From Oscillospiraceae bacterium (GTDB taxonomy: Bacteria; Bacillota; Clostridia; UBA1381; UBA9506): a stretch of DNA of 35,119 nucleotides. The notes beneath the pieces are model-generated. The model saw only the letters and a program-made list of their open reading frames with translations, was not told where the DNA came from and searched no databases. How positions within the stretch are numbered: position 1 is the stretch's first letter; every line of letters begins with the position of its first letter. Shown here piece after piece: positions 26,737-35,045 of the stretch. The stretch spans positions 1 to 35,119 of the forward strand of contig SVJJ01000014.1 of the NCBI GenBank assembly GCA_015069045.1. Reading direction: 5' to 3'. The translations under genes were made by a program, and so were the position numbers.

Positions 26737-26790
26737 AAAACCCACATAAACGCTCCGATCGCGAGCCTTTATGTGGGTTTTATATTTGGT
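26737..26790. terminator. Strong hairpin/terminator before the remnant gene
   Basis: A perfect 14-bp stem, AAAACCCACATAAA (26737-26750) with TTTATGTGGGTTTT (26768-26781), has a small inner GCTC/GAGC stem. It is T-rich on the plus side and preceded by an A-run that gives T's on the minus strand. The following open frame begins inside its 3' arm. It closely resembles the hairpin at 29157-29203. Confidence 0.8.
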
Positions 26791-29020
26791 AAATAACCGT
26801 TACGTTTATAAATGCACCACCTACAGAGAGGCCACCAACACAGAAACTAAAGAAGTTTCGAAGTCTTGGATAAGAAGAAGTTTTGAACAGCTTTTTGATG
26901 CTCAGGGCGGACAAAAACAGGTGTCAGTTCAGGGCGTTGCTATGGACGGAGAACCCTATATTGTTTCTGTTGGTAAAAGAGCTGTCAGAAAAGTTATTTC
27001 TGACCCTAATTTAAGTGCAGAAAAACTGGCGGTTTTAGAGAGTATTGAAAATGTCATTGCTAATGCTGAGTATGTTGGAAGTGGTAAATATGTACCGAAA
27101 GAGGGCGTAAAACCCAAAAATGTTACACGGTATGACTATTTTGAAACGCCGGCATCAATTAACGGACAAGACTATATCGTTGCGTTTGATGTTGAAGTTT
27201 TTCCACAAGGAAATAACAATTATCGAACCCATAAAGTTATAAATGAAATGGACCTAACACCAATTTCGGGTACCGACGATGCTCCAGTAGCCTCCGCAGC
27301 CGAAATGGCATTAAGTCCATCTATTAATAGTATACCACAAAATGCGGAAAATAGCAACAAAAATTTTGTGGAAAGCAAAGAAAAGGGACAAGCGCAGGCT
27401 TTTGGTGAGGCACAGCGGGTCTTCGAGGATGCCGACTCCTACGGCGTGGGGGACGATTTGAGGCAAGAGAAGGTAAGGGACTCTGAACGGGACATCGTCA
27501 ATCGGATGGGGGAAAATCTTAAGAGAAAGATTGTTTGGTACGACCCTGCTACAGAGCCGGAAAATGCAGACGCAGACGGTTATTACGTTAACGGAGAGAT
27601 ACGCATTAATGAATATGCCAAAGACCCTGCAGCCGTGGTTTTCGGGCATGAGGTGTTTCACTCTTTGCCGGAGGCAGACAAGATTGCCCTGATTGACCTT
27701 TTTAAAGAACATGTTAATCAGAATTCTGCAGCGTTTCAATCGTACAAAACGAGTCTTGACAATAAATATAAGGCACGGTACGCCAAAGAAGGCAGAAACT
27801 TTACCGAGGATGACTTTTGGGAAGAGTTTGCCGCCAAAAACATGGGCACATTCTTTGGCGATGAAAGCTTTGTCAATAAGCTTGCGCGAGAAAACAGCGG
27901 GTTTGCTCAGCGGATTTTAAATGCCATTCGTGACTTTTTTGATAAGGTTGGCGGTTTCTTCTCTCCTAAAAGCTACACAGGCAGGGTCAGCGAGGCTACA
28001 GAGGTCGGCGGTTTTTCGGATGCCACACTGCGCAAAGCGGAGAGGATGCTGGAGAAGGCGCTGAATCAGCAGATGAAGAGTCCTTCGTATGCGGAGAAGG
28101 CGGAGGCAAAGTTTTCGTATATAGGGAAAACAAAGTCGGGTATTAGAAAATATAAATCTGATTTTCCTGTAGATATGCCGATGGATGATAGAATTGGACT
28201 GTTTAAAAAGAGAATCAGTACGATTTTTAACTTGGGCGTTGTAGAACTTCAAACAGATACTAAAAAAATAAAAGTGCTCGGCGATAAATTTACATTCAAA
28301 AAAAACATGTTTGGGGATGAGGTTTCTACTCCATTAGAAGCTTCCGCCAGGATTAATTCTTTATATGATTTGTCAGATATTCTATCGCATTCTAAATATG
28401 TCGGGAAAGAGATAGAACCAAGTTATGCCGATTCAAATGTTGCGCCTAAGAACGATGCGCATAAAGGTGTAAAATATTGGTACAAGTTTAAAAATACCAT
28501 CTACTTTGATGGCATTAAATATGACGTTACTTTTTCTATTCGAGATAAGGGAAAAGAACAGTACGAGTATTTTATTGACTTTAAAACAAAAGAGGATGGC
28601 TCAAATCAACCATACAGTCAAAAAGACCTCCGGCTAGCATTAGATGAGCCATCCTCTTCTTACAGTATACCCAATTTCCATGAAAAAGTCAATACAAAAT
28701 CTTCAACTAATCGCGAATCTTCCGGCAAACCCTTATACAATCTAACTGATGGCGACTTAGAGCGCTCTGCTTTTTATGACAATCTTCAAGAGGCGGAAAC
28801 GGTAGAGGATGCGGTTAAGCGGATGGTGGATGACAATATTGACCTTTTCACCTATGAACCGATTACCAATGAAGAAACAATGGTTAAGGCCGTGCAGGAG
28901 GTTATGGCAGAGCCGGGCAGAGAGGCGCTGCGCTTTTTGGGGCTGACGCAAGGTGTTTTATGTGCCAGTGCCAGCGTGCATGTGAATCAGCTAGTGAAGC
29001 AGGCAGGAAAAAGTGAATAG
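26771..29020 (+). pseudogene. Fragment of a giant phage/ICE polyvalent protein with HExxH peptidase and LPD3-like domains
   Basis: The open frame of 749 codons starts inside a terminator hairpin with no ribosome site, so it is probably 5'-truncated. Order: an LPD3-like segment (about 45-160), a polar linker, and a zinc-peptidase domain with HEVFH (293-297) and a likely third ligand in DDFWEEFAAK (about 347-356). A second LPD3-like beta domain follows (about 455-640, with KYWYKFKNTIYFDGIKYDV). The C-terminal stub (about 650-749, FTYEPITNEET) looks like the start of a further domain that is cut off. The stretch at about 28125-28690 is more A/T-rich than its flanks. Such modular proteins occur in prophages and conjugative elements and often carry toxins. 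The domain names come from memory of pattern and need a profile search. Confidence 0.6.
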
Positions 29021-29060: not shown

Positions 29061-29156
29061 TTACATAGGAAGAAATATTTTTTACTACACAATTTTTACA
29101 CATTATTTGTAGTATTTTATAGCTTTTTATGGTGTTTTGCTGTACTTTTAAAACAT

Positions 29157-29206
29157 AAAAACCCGCATAAACACTGGATTTCTCAGTGAATATGCGGGTT
29201 TTTTGG
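29157..29206 (+). terminator. Second strong hairpin/terminator, look-alike of 26737-26781
   Basis: A 13-bp stem, AAAAACCCGCATA (29157-29169) with TATGCGGGTTTTT (29191-29203), has an inner CACTG/CAGTG stem (29172-29176 with 29184-29188) and a T-run. Its outer arms differ from those of the upstream hairpin mainly by A to G in CCCRCATAAAC. Confidence 0.8.
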
Positions 29207-29296
29207 TTTGTAAGAACGATATGATTTTACTGCCACATCAATTTTTGCTTGATTTCAAGCGGTTTTGAAGGTTTTACCCTTATCAATTCCAAAGGC

Positions 29297-29377
29297 AGAA
29301 TAAATCTCTTTTACAAGATTTATTCTACCATAAAACTATATTTTTTACAAGGCCTTTTTGAAAATTTCTTGTAAAAA
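29297..29377. repeat. Cluster of inverted repeats next to the recombinase 3' end
   Basis: There are two perfect inverted repeats. AGAATAAATCT (29297-29307) pairs with AGATTTATTCT (29316-29326). TTTTTACAAG (29342-29351) pairs with CTTGTAAAAA (29368-29377). The motif TTTTACAAG occurs twice direct (29309-29317, 29343-29351) and once inverted (29368-29376). No proper T-run follows on the minus strand, so these are not simple terminators of the recombinase operon. The rest of 29207-29386 holds no gene I can see. The cluster could be recombinase-binding or attachment-site DNA; this is inference. Confidence 0.45.
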
Positions 29378-29386
29378 GACTTGCCG

Positions 29387-30991
29387 TTATTCTGGCAGGT
29401 CGACCTCATAAGGTATGTCGCCGATGAACCATATGACCATCTTTTTCTTTGACACGACCTCGTATCTTTCGATGATGCTTCGAATGAGAGGCGTATCAAT
29501 CTCACATACCTTATCTTCCATACCATCGATGGCTTTGAAGATAAGCTTCAGCTTAGATGACTCGGTTGATTTCATCTTTCTCTCCATCTCATATTCCTTA
29601 TTCTCTTGACGCAGTCTTTGCGATTCTATCTTCACTTCCAGACATATTCTGTCAAGCTCGTCTGGTGATATTTCGCCGTTGGCACTTTGGTATATGGCTT
29701 CACGCACTCTGTCGCTCATCAGATTAAGCTTTTCCATATTGGCACTTATCTTTGGCTGTTCGGTATCCCCGAGCAGAGAGGCGATTGAGCTTTTTAATAT
29801 GTCCTTTACTCTTTTTCTGCTTGTATATATCGTATTGATGGCTTTGAGCGTAACCTCATTCATAAAGTTGTTGTTGATGGAAGGAGAATTCTGACAGCAA
29901 TCTTGTCCGTTCTGAATTCTGTTCAGGCACCGCCACACATATTTCTTATCACCGCTACGGGTTTTCCATTCTGTTCGTCTGTACTTGGCTCCGCACTCAC
30001 CACAGAAGATTAAGTCGTTGTATGGAAACTTGCCGCTGTATTTTCCGTAGCTTTGTTTTTTATCAAACTTTTTGATGCAACTACGGCGACTCAATTCTTC
30101 TTGCACACTGTCGAACAATTCCCGTTCTATGATTGGCGGATGATGGTCTTTGATAAGCCACTGCTGAATCTGTCCTGTATTCTTTACCTTTTTCTTTGAG
30201 ATTGGATCAACAGTGAAGGTCTTTGAGGTCAGGACATCACCTACATACTTTTCGTTCTTAAGTATTCTTTCCACTGATCCTGGCGACCATCTTTCTTTAC
30301 CTCTCGGAGAGGGGATTTCTCTTTCGGCAAGTGCATTTACAATTTGTTCTATGCTCATACCTTTTATGAAGCAGTCGAAGATGAACCTGACATTGATTGC
30401 TTTACCAATTTCCACTGTTATGTTTCTTTCTGCATCCTGACTGAAACCGTATACGCCGTTAAAGTTATAGCAACACTTGCCCTCACGGTATCTGTAGCTT
30501 CTGCCCATCTTTATGTTTTCGCTCATTGACTCACTTTCAGCCTGAGCAAATATGGTGTGCAGAGCAATGAACATCTCGGTTGTATAGTTAAGGGTATTGA
30601 TTCCTTCTTTTTCGAATAGCACCCCAACTCCCAAATCCTTAAGCTCTCTGATGCATTGTAAGCTTTCGGCGGTATTTCTGCCGAATCTTGATACGGATTT
30701 TGTTACTACGAGGTCTAACTTACCCTTTCTGCAATCGTTCATCATTCTCTGAAACCCAGGTCGGTTATATATGGATGTTCCGCTGATACCTTCATCGCCA
30801 TATATATCTACATATTTCCAGCCTGCCGTTTCTTTAATCATTTTGGTATAGTGTTCAACCTGAGTCTCAAAGCTTTTTGCCTGTTGTTCTGCCTCGGTAC
30901 TGACTCTCGCATAAGCACCGACATTCAGCACTCGCTTTGCACCATGCCCTAAATATGATTTGGTTGCAGGTATTTCAATTACATTTGCCAT
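29387..30991 (-). CDS. Large serine recombinase (third gene of triplet)
   Basis: A 534-residue site-specific recombinase. The N-terminal resolvase domain (about 20-165) has the catalytic Ser31 in YARVSTEAEQQ, plus GDEGISGT and SVSRFGRN with the active-site Arg residues. The recombinase domain (about 185-300) and a zinc ribbon (CGECGAKY and the paired Cys in CLNRIQNGQDCC) follow. A coiled-coil C-terminus comes next. It starts 2 bp after the 287-codon gene; AAGGAG lies 12 nt upstream inside that gene's end. It should cut and rejoin the element ends together with its two neighbours. Its stop lies about 10 bp from the inverted-repeat cluster. Confidence 0.92.
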   Translation of the reverse strand: MANVIEIPATKSYLGHGAKRVLNVGAYARVSTEAEQQAKSFETQVEHYTKMIKETAGWKYVDIYGDEGISGTSIYNRPGFQRMMNDCRKGKLDLVVTKSVSRFGRNTAESLQCIRELKDLGVGVLFEKEGINTLNYTTEMFIALHTIFAQAESESMSENIKMGRSYRYREGKCCYNFNGVYGFSQDAERNITVEIGKAINVRFIFDCFIKGMSIEQIVNALAEREIPSPRGKERWSPGSVERILKNEKYVGDVLTSKTFTVDPISKKKVKNTGQIQQWLIKDHHPPIIERELFDSVQEELSRRSCIKKFDKKQSYGKYSGKFPYNDLIFCGECGAKYRRTEWKTRSGDKKYVWRCLNRIQNGQDCCQNSPSINNNFMNEVTLKAINTIYTSRKRVKDILKSSIASLLGDTEQPKISANMEKLNLMSDRVREAIYQSANGEISPDELDRICLEVKIESQRLRQENKEYEMERKMKSTESSKLKLIFKAIDGMEDKVCEIDTPLIRSIIERYEVVSKKKMVIWFIGDIPYEVDLPE

Positions 30992-30993
30992 CC

Positions 30994-31857
30994 TTAATTC
31001 ACACTCCTTGTTATTAGTTTCCCATTAGTTAGCAGTATCGAAAGCTCATCCTGACCGCCTACATAGAATTTTGATATAATTTTCTGCATAAGCGGAAGAT
31101 GGGGTTCTGCGAGTATCCCATACTTGCAAAGCTCCTTTTTTATTCTTTCGGTAACTGCACTCATATCTGTTTTGATGCTGTTTCGGAATTTGATTTTTGC
31201 AAGCTCATATATGTCTGCAAGCACTTCATCCTTATCATATTCCGTCAGCATTTTTATGTAGATATCGTTTGCCATATCGTCTGTCTGCTCGCTATCTGCA
31301 ATTGCGGTTATAACAGGTTCATCTGCAAGGCTTAAATCGTCTGCCACCATGTTAAGCAATTCCGTTATGAGATTTACAAGACGATTCTCTTTAACAGATT
31401 TCGCCGGGCATACAGAATTGGTACATTTATATGCCACAGACTTATTTTCGCCGTAGCATTGATTCTGCCTTTTTATCGGTGAACTGCATATCGGGCATTC
31501 CGAATGAGTCCGAAGGAAGTTATCAAGCTCTGTCTTTTCAGGCGGTTTATTTATGTTTTTTGCAAGCCTTGTCTTGTTCGCCTTGTTATAGAGCTTTTCT
31601 TCTATGATTTGCGGATAACCGTTTCTGCCGATATATTTATCGTTTTCAATTATCCGCTTTACCATATTTTTATTCCATTTGTCAGAATCAATGTTGTATC
31701 TGATTCCGCTTAAGGTAAATCTTTCAGCAATCTGGCTGTAGGATTTTCCTGCCGCATACAGTGTAAAGGCTGCCTTTACAAGCTCTGCCTCAGTTTCTTC
31801 AACACACAATTTGCCGTCAGCTATTTTGTAGCCGAATGCAAGGTAACGGTTTGCCAT
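30994..31857 (-). CDS. Recombinase-like protein lacking the catalytic resolvase domain (middle gene of triplet)
   Basis: A 287-residue protein that starts directly in the DNA-binding recombinase domain (MANRYLAFGYKI, then IAERFTLSGIRYN and VKRIIENDKYIGRNGYP). A zinc ribbon follows (CPICSSP and YKCTNSVCPAKS), then a helical C-terminus. The catalytic Ser domain of 150 or so residues is absent. AAGGAGG 9 nt upstream of the ATG, and a zero-gap junction with the preceding gene, show that it is a designed gene start, not the tail of a broken gene. It may be a non-catalytic DNA-binding partner or directionality factor for the two full-length enzymes; this is inference. Confidence 0.88.
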   Translation of the reverse strand: MANRYLAFGYKIADGKLCVEETEAELVKAAFTLYAAGKSYSQIAERFTLSGIRYNIDSDKWNKNMVKRIIENDKYIGRNGYPQIIEEKLYNKANKTRLAKNINKPPEKTELDNFLRTHSECPICSSPIKRQNQCYGENKSVAYKCTNSVCPAKSVKENRLVNLITELLNMVADDLSLADEPVITAIADSEQTDDMANDIYIKMLTEYDKDEVLADIYELAKIKFRNSIKTDMSAVTERIKKELCKYGILAEPHLPLMQKIISKFYVGGQDELSILLTNGKLITRSVN

Positions 31858-33399
31858 TTATAACACCTCCTTTTTGCTAACCTCAAGCCCCATTCCGTTT
31901 ATGACGATAAAGGTTATTATTTCATTATCTGCTTCAATTCTGCTTACAAGAGTCTTGAAGCTTTCAGCATCGAATTTGCCTATTGCACAAGCCGATTCCA
32001 TTTCTCTTATGATTTTTCTGGTCTTTGAGATAATGTCATCATAACGGTTGTTGTGCAATATGGCATTTTTCTTTTTGCGAAGCTCCATTGTTTGTTTATC
32101 AAAGCGGTTAAGCTCCTGAATATAGAAAGCAGGTTCTATCAGCTCCTGACTCTTTAGTCTTCGGAGTGATAAGACCTGCTCTGTATTCTGTGCTATTTGC
32201 ATATTGATATCAGCGATTTTATCTTGCTCTGCCTTGTTTACCCGCATAGCCTCCACCTGTGTTAAGAATGGGAGGAGGATATGCTCATAATTTGCTTTCA
32301 GCTTATTATACATTTGAACAAATGCCTTTTTAAGCATTTCTTCGCTTATAGGATTAGCCTGACATTTGTCTGTTCCCTTATCGTGAGTTCTGCATGCCCA
32401 TGTGTCTGTACCGTTTTTATGTCGGTAAGTGGAACCACAGTGCCTGCAATATATTTTCTTTGCGAATATACTTGTAGTTTCACTGCTTTCCTTGGCATGC
32501 TTTTCACGCCTTGTCTGCATAAGTTCGGCTGCTTTGTCAAAGTCTTCTGCACTTACTATAGGGATATTGGCATCCTCTGCATAATACATTGGCAGCTCGC
32601 CTGTGTTCTTCTTTTTCTTATATGGAAATCCTGTTTTAAAGGATTTCTGGAACAGGGCATCGCCTTTGTACCTTGGGTTATTTATGATATAGCTGACACT
32701 TTGCGGTGTCCAATGCACCATGCCGTACTTATTGGGGATTTTATCTCTCATAAGTCCATCGGCAATTTTGCTTGTACCGCTTCCTGATAGGTATTCGGCA
32801 AATATCCGTCTGATAACCTCGGCTTGTTCCTCGTTGACCTCGAATTCTGTGCCGTTTAATGTATAACCGATTGGAGGATTGCTTTGTACATATGTACCCA
32901 GCTTCATTCTCTGGCGGTTTGCCATTCTGCCGTTTTCAGCAGTAGAGATTGATTCCTGTTCAGCCATTGCTGCTTTTACTGATATCATTGTAAAGTCAGC
33001 AGGTTTTCCCGAATCAAGACCTTCCTCTTCAAATATCACGGTAACTCCAATATCCTTGAGGTGCTTCACGGTTCTTAAGCACTCTGAAACATTTCGACCG
33101 AAGCGTGAGACCGATTTTGTAATGATGATGTCCATAAGTCCATCCTCGGCATCTCTTATCATTCGGTTGAATTCACTGCGTTTATCCTCTCTTGTGCCGG
33201 TTACACCTTCATCGGCATATATGTCTACATATTCCCATTCGGGTGTTTTCTGTATCAAGCTTGTAAAGTGTTGAACCTGATTATGGAAGGAGTATTGCTG
33301 TTCGTCTGAAGCAGAGCTTACTCTGGCATAAGCGGATACTCGCTTTATATCAGGTTCGTCTTTTGTATGATTTCCTTGGATAACAATTACTTCTGACAT
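31858..33399 (-). CDS. Large serine recombinase (first gene of triplet)
   Basis: A 513-residue recombinase. The catalytic Ser28 is in AYARVSSASDEQQ, with YADEGVTGTREDKR, SVSRFGRNVSE and FEEEGLDSG in the resolvase domain. The recombinase domain (about 180-290) with NPPIGYTLNG and a zinc ribbon (YCRHCGSTYRHK, WACRTHDKGTDKC) follow, then a long coiled coil with LRRLKSQEL. The ATG at 33399 is chosen because GGAAAGGAG lies 10 nt upstream; the longer frame from 33480 adds 27 residues with no family match. Its stop touches the next start. It is similar in layout to the third gene but clearly a different sequence. Confidence 0.92.
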   Translation of the reverse strand: MSEVIVIQGNHTKDEPDIKRVSAYARVSSASDEQQYSFHNQVQHFTSLIQKTPEWEYVDIYADEGVTGTREDKRSEFNRMIRDAEDGLMDIIITKSVSRFGRNVSECLRTVKHLKDIGVTVIFEEEGLDSGKPADFTMISVKAAMAEQESISTAENGRMANRQRMKLGTYVQSNPPIGYTLNGTEFEVNEEQAEVIRRIFAEYLSGSGTSKIADGLMRDKIPNKYGMVHWTPQSVSYIINNPRYKGDALFQKSFKTGFPYKKKKNTGELPMYYAEDANIPIVSAEDFDKAAELMQTRREKHAKESSETTSIFAKKIYCRHCGSTYRHKNGTDTWACRTHDKGTDKCQANPISEEMLKKAFVQMYNKLKANYEHILLPFLTQVEAMRVNKAEQDKIADINMQIAQNTEQVLSLRRLKSQELIEPAFYIQELNRFDKQTMELRKKKNAILHNNRYDDIISKTRKIIREMESACAIGKFDAESFKTLVSRIEADNEIITFIVINGMGLEVSKKEVL

Positions 33400-33491: not shown

Positions 33492-33647
33492 TTATGCTGA
33501 ATTTTCTATTAAAGTCTCGCTTAATGCATCAAAAGCTTTATCCATAAGCTTGTCTGCTTCCTCATCGCTTATAAGGTTTGCTTTTAATAGGTTTAAAATC
33601 ATAGCCTTGGCAATAGCCTTTTCTATTTCTATATTCATAGATTTCAT
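33492..33647 (-). CDS. Small 51-residue SHOCT-like protein upstream of the recombinases
   Basis: The frame runs from ATG 33647 to TAA 33494-33492 and encodes a Lys/Glu-rich helical peptide starting MKSMNIEIEKAIAKAMI, with LLKANLISDEEADKL in the middle. The latter resembles a SHOCT-type short C-terminal helix pair (L-x2-G/N-L-I-x-D-E-E). It has 51 codons without interruption, and an AAAGGGATG stretch upstream serves as a modest ribosome site. It sits about 90 bp before the first recombinase, same strand, so it is likely co-transcribed. A small regulator or assembly factor of recombination is possible; no function is known to me. Confidence 0.6.
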   Translation of the reverse strand: MKSMNIEIEKAIAKAMILNLLKANLISDEEADKLMDKAFDALSETLIENSA

Positions 33648-33916: not shown

Positions 33917-33947
33917 ATTGGTCAAATTACTATCGGGGAGAGAATTT

Positions 33948-35045
33948 ATGTTAGAAAAACGCAGATTAGAGGATAAAAAGGACGATTACGCAAGCTTTAG
34001 TGCAGAGTTTTATGGTAATAAAGTGATTTTAGGAAAAAACAGTTTACCTCTAGGTCAATTGGCAACCGATTTTCTGGAATTAGAGGATGAACAACTTTCA
34101 AAACTCAGAGAGGTAACACTTTTATTACTTGATGCTACACAGAAAATATATAAGCCTTTAGATAAAATTGAGAACGAAGAAGATTTCCGAAACGGGTTAG
34201 ATTCCTTTTTGCCTATTTTTAAATTATTCTTGGATGAACTCGACAAACTACCGCTATTTAGAGAACTTGAAATAAATCAGAAGCAGGTAATCAAGGCTTT
34301 CGTTGAAACATATAACGATAACAACATCAAAAAGCTGAATTGGAATCAGGAATTCTTAGGAAATTTTCTTTCGGACATTCTGGCTTACCATGATGAAATT
34401 CATATTTTCAGGCTCTATGCCGATACATTGCTTGATGACTATGTGAAATATGCAAAAAAGCGTACCCCCACAGAGTACGCAAAAGCCATTCATAAATTTT
34501 CAAAAGATAAGGATATGCAAGCAAAACTTCAATCAATGTTGCATCCTGAAATATATGACAATGTATTCAAAATAGAGCAACCTGTTAATATTGACTACAT
34601 TACCAGACCTAACCCAAGCAATAAGAAACAATATATCGTTACAGAAAGAACAGTCTATAGAAGCTTAGGAGGATTTTTGAAAGCAGAATTATATCGAGCA
34701 CTTGTAGCAGGCAACGCACCAAGAATATGTGATAATTGCGGTAGATACTTTTTGATAATAGGTCAGGAAAAAACTCTTTACTGTAATCGAGTTGCACCGA
34801 ACGATCCAAAGGGAAGGTTATGCCGTAAGGTAGGTGCTCACATCAAGGCTCAAAAACTGCATGATGTTGCATATGAGAAGGCCTACAGTAGAGCGTATGA
34901 CAGATTAAAGCACCGTAAGCGTGCAGGAACTATTGATACGAAAACCTGGAATAAGTTGGTCGTTGAAATTCAGGATATTCGTGATGATGCAAGAGCCGGC
35001 AAAATTTCTGATGCCGAGGCTGTTGAAAAATTAAACAAATATTAA
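33948..35045 (+). CDS. DUF6076-like protein with C-terminal zinc ribbon, unknown function
   Basis: A 365-residue protein. The first 240 residues or so are helical and acidic with no motif I know. About 255-310 forms a treble-clef/zinc-ribbon-like block: ICDNCGRYFLI, then LYCNR and GRLCRKVGA, Cys-x2-Cys with two later Cys. The tail is Lys/Arg-rich with YEKAYSRAYDRLKHRKR, which could bind nucleic acid. It recalls DUF6076 proteins common in accessory DNA of Clostridia; that match is from memory. The ATG at 33948 has GGGGAG 7 nt upstream; the longer frame from 33918 does not. It diverges from the recombinase genes and is probably cargo or a regulator of the element. Confidence 0.7.
   Translation: MLEKRRLEDKKDDYASFSAEFYGNKVILGKNSLPLGQLATDFLELEDEQLSKLREVTLLLLDATQKIYKPLDKIENEEDFRNGLDSFLPIFKLFLDELDKLPLFRELEINQKQVIKAFVETYNDNNIKKLNWNQEFLGNFLSDILAYHDEIHIFRLYADTLLDDYVKYAKKRTPTEYAKAIHKFSKDKDMQAKLQSMLHPEIYDNVFKIEQPVNIDYITRPNPSNKKQYIVTERTVYRSLGGFLKAELYRALVAGNAPRICDNCGRYFLIIGQEKTLYCNRVAPNDPKGRLCRKVGAHIKAQKLHDVAYEKAYSRAYDRLKHRKRAGTIDTKTWNKLVVEIQDIRDDARAGKISDAEAVEKLNKY

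Follow-up and report, generated by a model that had tools for sequence, protein, structure and literature searches.

A serine recombinase triplet with a catalytically empty middle gene recurs across mobile elements

A contig of an Oscillospiraceae bacterium (SVJJ01000014.1, assembly GCA_015069045.1), whose whole length of 35,119 nt we refer to as the window, carries three consecutive genes, here named SR1, M and SR3. They belong to a widespread module in which two complete large serine recombinases flank a real, conserved and non-catalytic member, M, that is not a relic. Because this full/empty/full layout recurs in dozens of unrelated contigs, it is more than a chance observation. With moderate confidence, we propose that SR1 and SR3 would form a catalytic pair within a small mobile element, and that M would serve as a non-catalytic DNA-binding subunit that assembles or regulates the synapse. 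The three genes are as follows.

31858–33399, minus strand: SR1, the module's first recombinase; a complete large serine recombinase of 513 aa with catalytic Ser28 (PF00239, PF07508, PF13408)
30994–31857, minus strand: M, middle gene; 287 aa, with a recombinase domain, zinc ribbon and coiled-coil region, lacking the catalytic domain
29387–30991, minus strand: SR3, the last recombinase and the one closest to the element end; a complete large serine recombinase of 534 aa with catalytic Ser31 (PF00239, PF07508, PF13408)

Results

Two complete enzymes flank a gene without a catalytic domain

How are the three genes arranged, and what does each encode? Transcription runs from SR1 (ATG at 33399, stop at 31858) through M (ATG at 31857, stop at 30994) to SR3 (ATG at 30991, stop at 29387), leaving gaps of 0 bp between SR1 and M and 2 bp between M and SR3. 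At the first junction, AAAAAGGAGGTGTTATAAATGG, the ribosome site of M lies within the end of SR1 and its ATG abuts the SR1 stop, such that AGGAGGTG and the stop codon TAA immediately precede the start of M. Such near-zero gaps with ribosome sites are kept across loci. Both enzymes carry the Pfam domains Resolvase (PF00239), Recombinase (PF07508) and Zn_ribbon (PF13408). On M, Pfam recognizes PF07508 (residues 21–81) alone, plus a zinc-binding C4 motif below the cut-off. The serine of the RVS motif, Ser28 in SR1 and Ser31 in SR3, is invariant in 14 aligned sequences of each enzyme, as are the catalytic arginines and the surrounding Asp, Lys and Arg positions. By domain set and catalytic Ser and Arg residues, SR1 and SR3 classify as large serine recombinases, predicted to recombine attachment (att) sites. 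Rfam matched no RNA at the recombinase module.

An earlier, sequence-only reading of this DNA had described consecutive recombinase genes at 29387–33399, with both catalytic serines in place and a middle gene that has its own ribosome site and no catalytic domain. The gene positions and gaps, the alignments, the Pfam domains and the junction sequence bear this out. That reading had also taken the tiny gaps to imply a fixed ratio of the three products; what the gaps show is only that the reading frames are tightly coupled.

We modeled M with AlphaFold2 using 36 homologues, obtaining a mean predicted local distance difference test score (pLDDT) of 88 and a predicted template modeling score (pTM) of 0.52, the latter of which leaves the domain arrangement uncertain. 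The best PDB matches of the model are the large serine integrases of SPbeta, Bxb1, phiC31 and A118, with M residues 3–280 corresponding to about 168–535 of the SPbeta integrase (Z 13–14). In the comparison with SPbeta integrase (Z 14.1, model residues 5–279, 260 residues aligned), the overall root-mean-square deviation is 20 Å, a high value as expected if the domains move. According to the model, M retains everything that a large serine integrase has in its C-terminal half, and it starts at the boundary that follows the long helix of the catalytic domain.

The middle gene is empty in both surveys

Do relatives of M ever keep a catalytic domain? We approached this question from both sides of the module. 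A scan of genome contigs starting from M yielded 67 loci, nearly all from Clostridia and related gut or anaerobic Bacillota, to which one IMG/VR contig and ten phage or plasmid records were added for a total of 78 middle homologues. Because one of the two search patterns placed no demand on the N-terminus, any catalytic domain fused there would have shown up. A resolvase profile built in this analysis detected the domain in none of the 78, and a recombinase was recognized on both sides of the middle gene in 64 of these loci. Starting instead from SR3, we took 60 high-scoring loci from 391 genomes of the class. In 48/60, a middle gene lies upstream of SR3 and lacks a catalytic domain; these middles come in a long (about 270–340 aa) and a short (137–182 aa) form. 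Another four are SR1–SR3 pairs with no middle gene (L221, L226, L227 and L228), and the remaining eight are truncated or missing a partner. There was no catalytic middle at any of the 60 loci. The emptiness that the sequence-only reading noted in one gene holds for its homologues in both surveys (0/78 and 0/48 keep the domain), which overlap in some genomes and are not fully independent. Two of the triplets (L056 and L058) lie in opposite orientation at both ends of a single 27-kb contig, JAGAUW010000027.1.

The short form of the middle gene lacks the zinc ribbon and the coiled coil. At an annotated length of about 138–140 aa, it stands between two recombinases of ~520 aa in the Streptococcus prophages Javan105, Javan191 and Javan630, in the Terrisporobacter phage TPDSL_ph1 and in the Gardnerella phage vB_Gva_AB1, and the survey from SR3 found short middles in many other Clostridia. 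Phages carry SR1, middle gene and SR3 as their integration module. Since the short form dispenses with the zinc ribbon and coiled coil, the functional core shared by all middles must lie in the recombinase domain. The short protein matches PHROG 7701 (phrog_7701, 137 aa) over its full length; the label of that family, "DNA invertase," is a name only, because the members seen here have no catalytic domain and cannot be invertases alone. In a Streptococcus suis phage record and in Enterococcus plasmids, SR3 and a short middle accompany a truncated first gene. Among these truncated cases are the Enterococcus and Ligilactobacillus plasmids of loci L234 (3503–8264) and L233, where the short middle and last gene are intact and the recombinase genes adjoin nucleotidyltransferase and methyltransferase genes, next to ant(6)-Ia in L234.

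The three genes have diverged together, and M is mostly under constraint

Are the three positions separate lineages? A midpoint-rooted tree of the recombinase domain from 43 triplets (117 columns), whose deep order is weak, recovered a clade for each position, with support of 100/91 for the middle, 100/92 for the last and 98/90 for the first gene; one plasmid first gene (L023) falls outside its clade. Each of the three genes also separates long from short systems, and the short middles nest beside the long-middled loci L024 and L025. Pairwise distances among SR1, M and SR3 correlate at r 0.92–0.96, and none of 999 permutations reached values as high. The ratio of nonsynonymous to synonymous substitution rates (dN/dS) of M is mostly 0.05–0.25 (e.g., 0.054 for L058/L059), pointing to a gene that is mostly under purifying selection; the single value above 1 comes from a pair with almost no synonymous change.

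Where might M have come from? A longer enzyme tree puts the four M-less pairs at the base of the first-gene clade and of the last-gene clade alike. Because these pairs are basal in both, the two-enzyme SR1–SR3 pair appears to be older and M was probably gained later, which is the simplest reading, although only four pairs bear on it; the alternative is loss of M in early lineages. We also considered a recent duplication of SR1 or SR3 as the source of M. The 117-column tree places M apart from both and nearer to single recombinases, a placement that its few columns and midpoint rooting make tentative.

The triplet sits at one end of a small mobile element

What carries the module, and where does it insert? 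The window contains four further features around the triplet, from host flank to cargo.

29151–29209, no strand assigned: host terminator-like hairpin abutting the element end; 26-nt arms, 85% complementary; its fold energy ranks among the lowest 0.1% in the window
29209–29386, no strand assigned: SR3-side element end; about 175 bp of conserved non-coding DNA, 72–79% identical to four relatives
33492–33647, minus strand: small SHOCT-like open reading frame (ORF), candidate recombination directionality factor; 51 aa, found by iterated profile
33918–35045, plus strand: DUF6076 gene (PF19553, E 3e-38), transcribed away from the recombinases; either cargo or a gene of the element

Homology downstream of SR3 breaks at window positions 29209–29212 (TGTA), both here and in a second copy in the same genome (C4) as well as at three other loci, and the crossover would lie near this TGTA. 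The opposite element end, TATCAAAATATGATAC, is present in C4, L059 and C17, and maps near position 2020 in L127 (the locus of C4, G000:C4) and near 976 in L059. The C4 and L059 elements measure 7.0 and 7.7 kb and contain a gene for an InlB-repeat secreted protein, the DUF6076 gene, the SHOCT-like ORF and the triplet. The window contig stops just past DUF6076, inside sequence repeated in C17, with the far element end beyond the contig. In the two relatives for which each end could be mapped, the ends have only TA in common; no direct repeats longer than this were found at the element ends, and the predicted circular form would contain the junction ...CGCTCGTATCAAAATATGATAC... A search across the order with the host flank of the window for an empty site gave no clean result.

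The genome holds exactly three DUF6076 genes, two of them beside triplets and one, in C17 (L137:5668-10282), beside a single recombinase of 554 aa. The C17 element is otherwise similar and shares stretches with the window at 98–99% identity; a triplet and a single enzyme can thus fill the same place. C4 has undergone a deletion (L127:5569-6387) that makes one reading frame of the SHOCT-like ORF and the zinc-ribbon end of SR1, while its M and SR3 remain intact.

The SR3-side end abuts a host terminator-like hairpin at all five loci compared (window 29151–29209, L127 at 9030, L059 at 8640, L058 at ~8099 and L056 at ~3264). The fold energies of these hairpins rank in the lowest 0.05–0.73% of the window and the lowest 0.1–3.2% of intergenic stretches, and a similar hairpin stands at the opposite element side in two of three cases. 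This pattern suggests that the element family inserts beside intrinsic terminators. Just outside the element in the window, between two similar hairpins, lies a 749-aa ORF (26771–29020) with an LPD3 domain and a metallopeptidase-like HEVFH motif; its relatives occupy other chromosomal places in genome G013.

A small gene upstream of SR1 is a candidate direction factor

A small ORF related to the SHOCT-like one lies just upstream of SR1 in 86/110 loci by iterated profile, with none on the opposite strand, and is present in three of the four M-less pairs. Relatives of this ORF match PF20612 (SHOCT_2) at 1e-20 to 1e-22, a match that supplies a name only. The 51-aa ORF of the window has no SHOCT match in Pfam, yet it is a seed of the shared iterated profile.

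Other small genes occur in the same neighborhood. Some 250–700 bp upstream of SR1, many loci encode a resolvase-fold protein of 120–170 aa (PF00239) without a DNA-binding domain (L061:3743-4126; also L062, L063, L065, L067, L070, L071, L074, L076, L081, L083, L091–L093, L095, L100, L103, L104, L116 and L117). Its catalytic serine is replaced (e.g., WIYCRID for YxRVS), and the protein, probably dead, mirrors the empty middle. Three loci (L085:6834-7379, L094:6840-7403 and L101:6701-7213) have extra ORFs between the middle and last genes that consist of a resolvase domain only and lack the catalytic serine motif.

Discussion

What might M do? We propose that SR1–M–SR3 would integrate and excise a small mobile element, which in relatives is about 7 kb long, and that the diverged and apparently competent SR1 and SR3 would cut and rejoin DNA together. 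M would be a third, non-catalytic subunit that putatively descends from a large serine recombinase reduced to its C-terminal half; its recombinase and zinc-ribbon domains would bind DNA, and its coiled coil would probably contact those of SR1 and/or SR3. With neither an active site nor the helix that dimerizes catalytic domains, M cannot provide a cutting half-site; it may aid assembly of the synaptic complex or its regulation, perhaps by occupying an accessory site in the 175 bp of conserved DNA at the element end. The analysis itself establishes which genes are present, that they are conserved, inherited together and under selection, that M has lost a domain, what fold is predicted for it and where the SR3-side end of the element lies; M probably works as one component of an integration machine built from several proteins. 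We infer that the three proteins would join in one complex with M on att DNA, and likewise the exact step at which M would act. The sequence-only reading had also suggested a heteromeric synapse completed by M, which here stands as a proposal.

Three observations weigh against this proposal. The existence of M-less SR1–SR3 pairs means that M is not universally required. A role for the coiled coil cannot be general, as the short middle has lost both it and the zinc ribbon. Finally, joining the flanks of C4 did not recover an empty target site.

Could M instead set the direction of recombination, as the sequence-only reading had offered? Known recombination directionality factors (RDFs) act on serine integrases through the zinc-ribbon/coiled-coil region, a region that M possesses; it is encoded in one gene string with the two enzymes, and the PDB matches to its model include entries titled as integrase–RDF complexes. 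M would then be made with the enzymes and switch them from integration to excision via its coiled coil. RDFs are normally controlled separately from integrases, however, whereas M is tightly coupled to them, and the short middle has no coiled coil. That a separate SHOCT-like gene is conserved upstream of SR1, even in M-less pairs, makes the suggestion less likely still; we regard a directional role for M as unlikely, and the SHOCT-like gene as the better candidate by position and conservation. It also seems improbable to us that M binds DNA to control its own recombinase operon or the maintenance of the element, outside the synapse. Its domain content and model predict a stand-alone DNA-binding protein, and the first–middle–last order with tight coupling would fit feedback control, but M lies within the enzyme operon rather than forming a separate regulator, and its divergence is strongly correlated with that of both enzymes.

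A DNA-binding half without a catalytic domain would be expected to compete for att half-sites, and the same genome has two triplet elements and a single-recombinase sister element, so one might picture M as dominant-negative, inhibiting related elements by blocking either their recombination or superinfection with them. We consider this quite improbable, as M is encoded between the very enzymes it would inhibit and is retained in temperate phages within their integration module. Least credible is the view that M is what remains of a third recombinase, decaying and passed on with its neighbors: M has lost one domain, and the short form still more, yet the domain loss is common to one clade that spans phages, plasmids and Clostridia, the reading frames are intact with zinc cysteines conserved at about 20–30% identity, and dN/dS is far below 1 in almost all pairs compared. 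This relic explanation, already largely refuted, was rejected on dN/dS and clade structure.

How does the module relate to known systems? Serine-integrase triplets have been described in streptococcal integrative and conjugative elements (ICEs) as a module of integration, with three adjacent same-strand genes whose proteins cluster by position (E/M/I) (PMC4701971), and both features are shared here. According to that study, all integrases, including those of triplets, have an N-terminal Resolvase domain, whereas the middle member here never does, including in prophages Javan105, 191 and 630; the streptococcal sequences covered by this analysis were prophages and an S. suis phage. The ICE triplets target sites inside genes (mutT, traG and hsdM; PMC4701971), while the window element lies between genes beside a terminator hairpin. 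Direct repeats of 2–8 bp mark the insertions of the ICE triplets; in the two relatives mapped at both ends here, the shared TA is all that is seen. In the large serine integrases Bxb1, phiC31, SPbeta and A118, with which SR1 and SR3 share the full domain order and catalytic residues and whose C-terminal half the model of M resembles, one enzyme does everything; here, two enzymes and a non-catalytic protein are encoded together. CcrA and CcrB of SCCmec are likewise two diverged large serine recombinases in one operon, and the best NCBIfam matches, far below threshold, are to CcrB and CcrA (scores of 139 and 133 bits, where CcrB has a cut-off of 900); the recombinases reach none of the CcrA, CcrB or CcrC cut-offs. 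We know of no empty middle gene in Ccr systems. The gin element of Bacillus cereus (PMC5595907) also has three serine recombinase genes on a small non-phage element, arranged as a girA–girB operon with girC distant, and its rearrangement of gerE requires GirC and GirX. Triplets are thus already known from streptococcal ICEs, and the catalytically empty middle is apparently undescribed: we found no report of it in the open full-text literature, which covers few subscription journals.

Textbooks present serine integrases as systems of a single protein, and genome-engineering tools are built on them. The empty middle may explain why we found no triplet member tested as a working system, and the M-less SR1–SR3 pairs offer a natural comparison. 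More broadly, and only tentatively, the module may represent an ancient and widespread three-subunit serine integrase of phages, plasmids and small elements, mainly of Bacillota, with two catalytic recombinases, an obligatory non-catalytic DNA-binding subunit and probably a SHOCT-like direction factor, in which target choice and synapsis would be split among subunits. If so, an empty relative kept between two enzymes would mean that serine integrases are divisible into cutting and non-cutting subunits, a natural way to part DNA recognition from catalysis.

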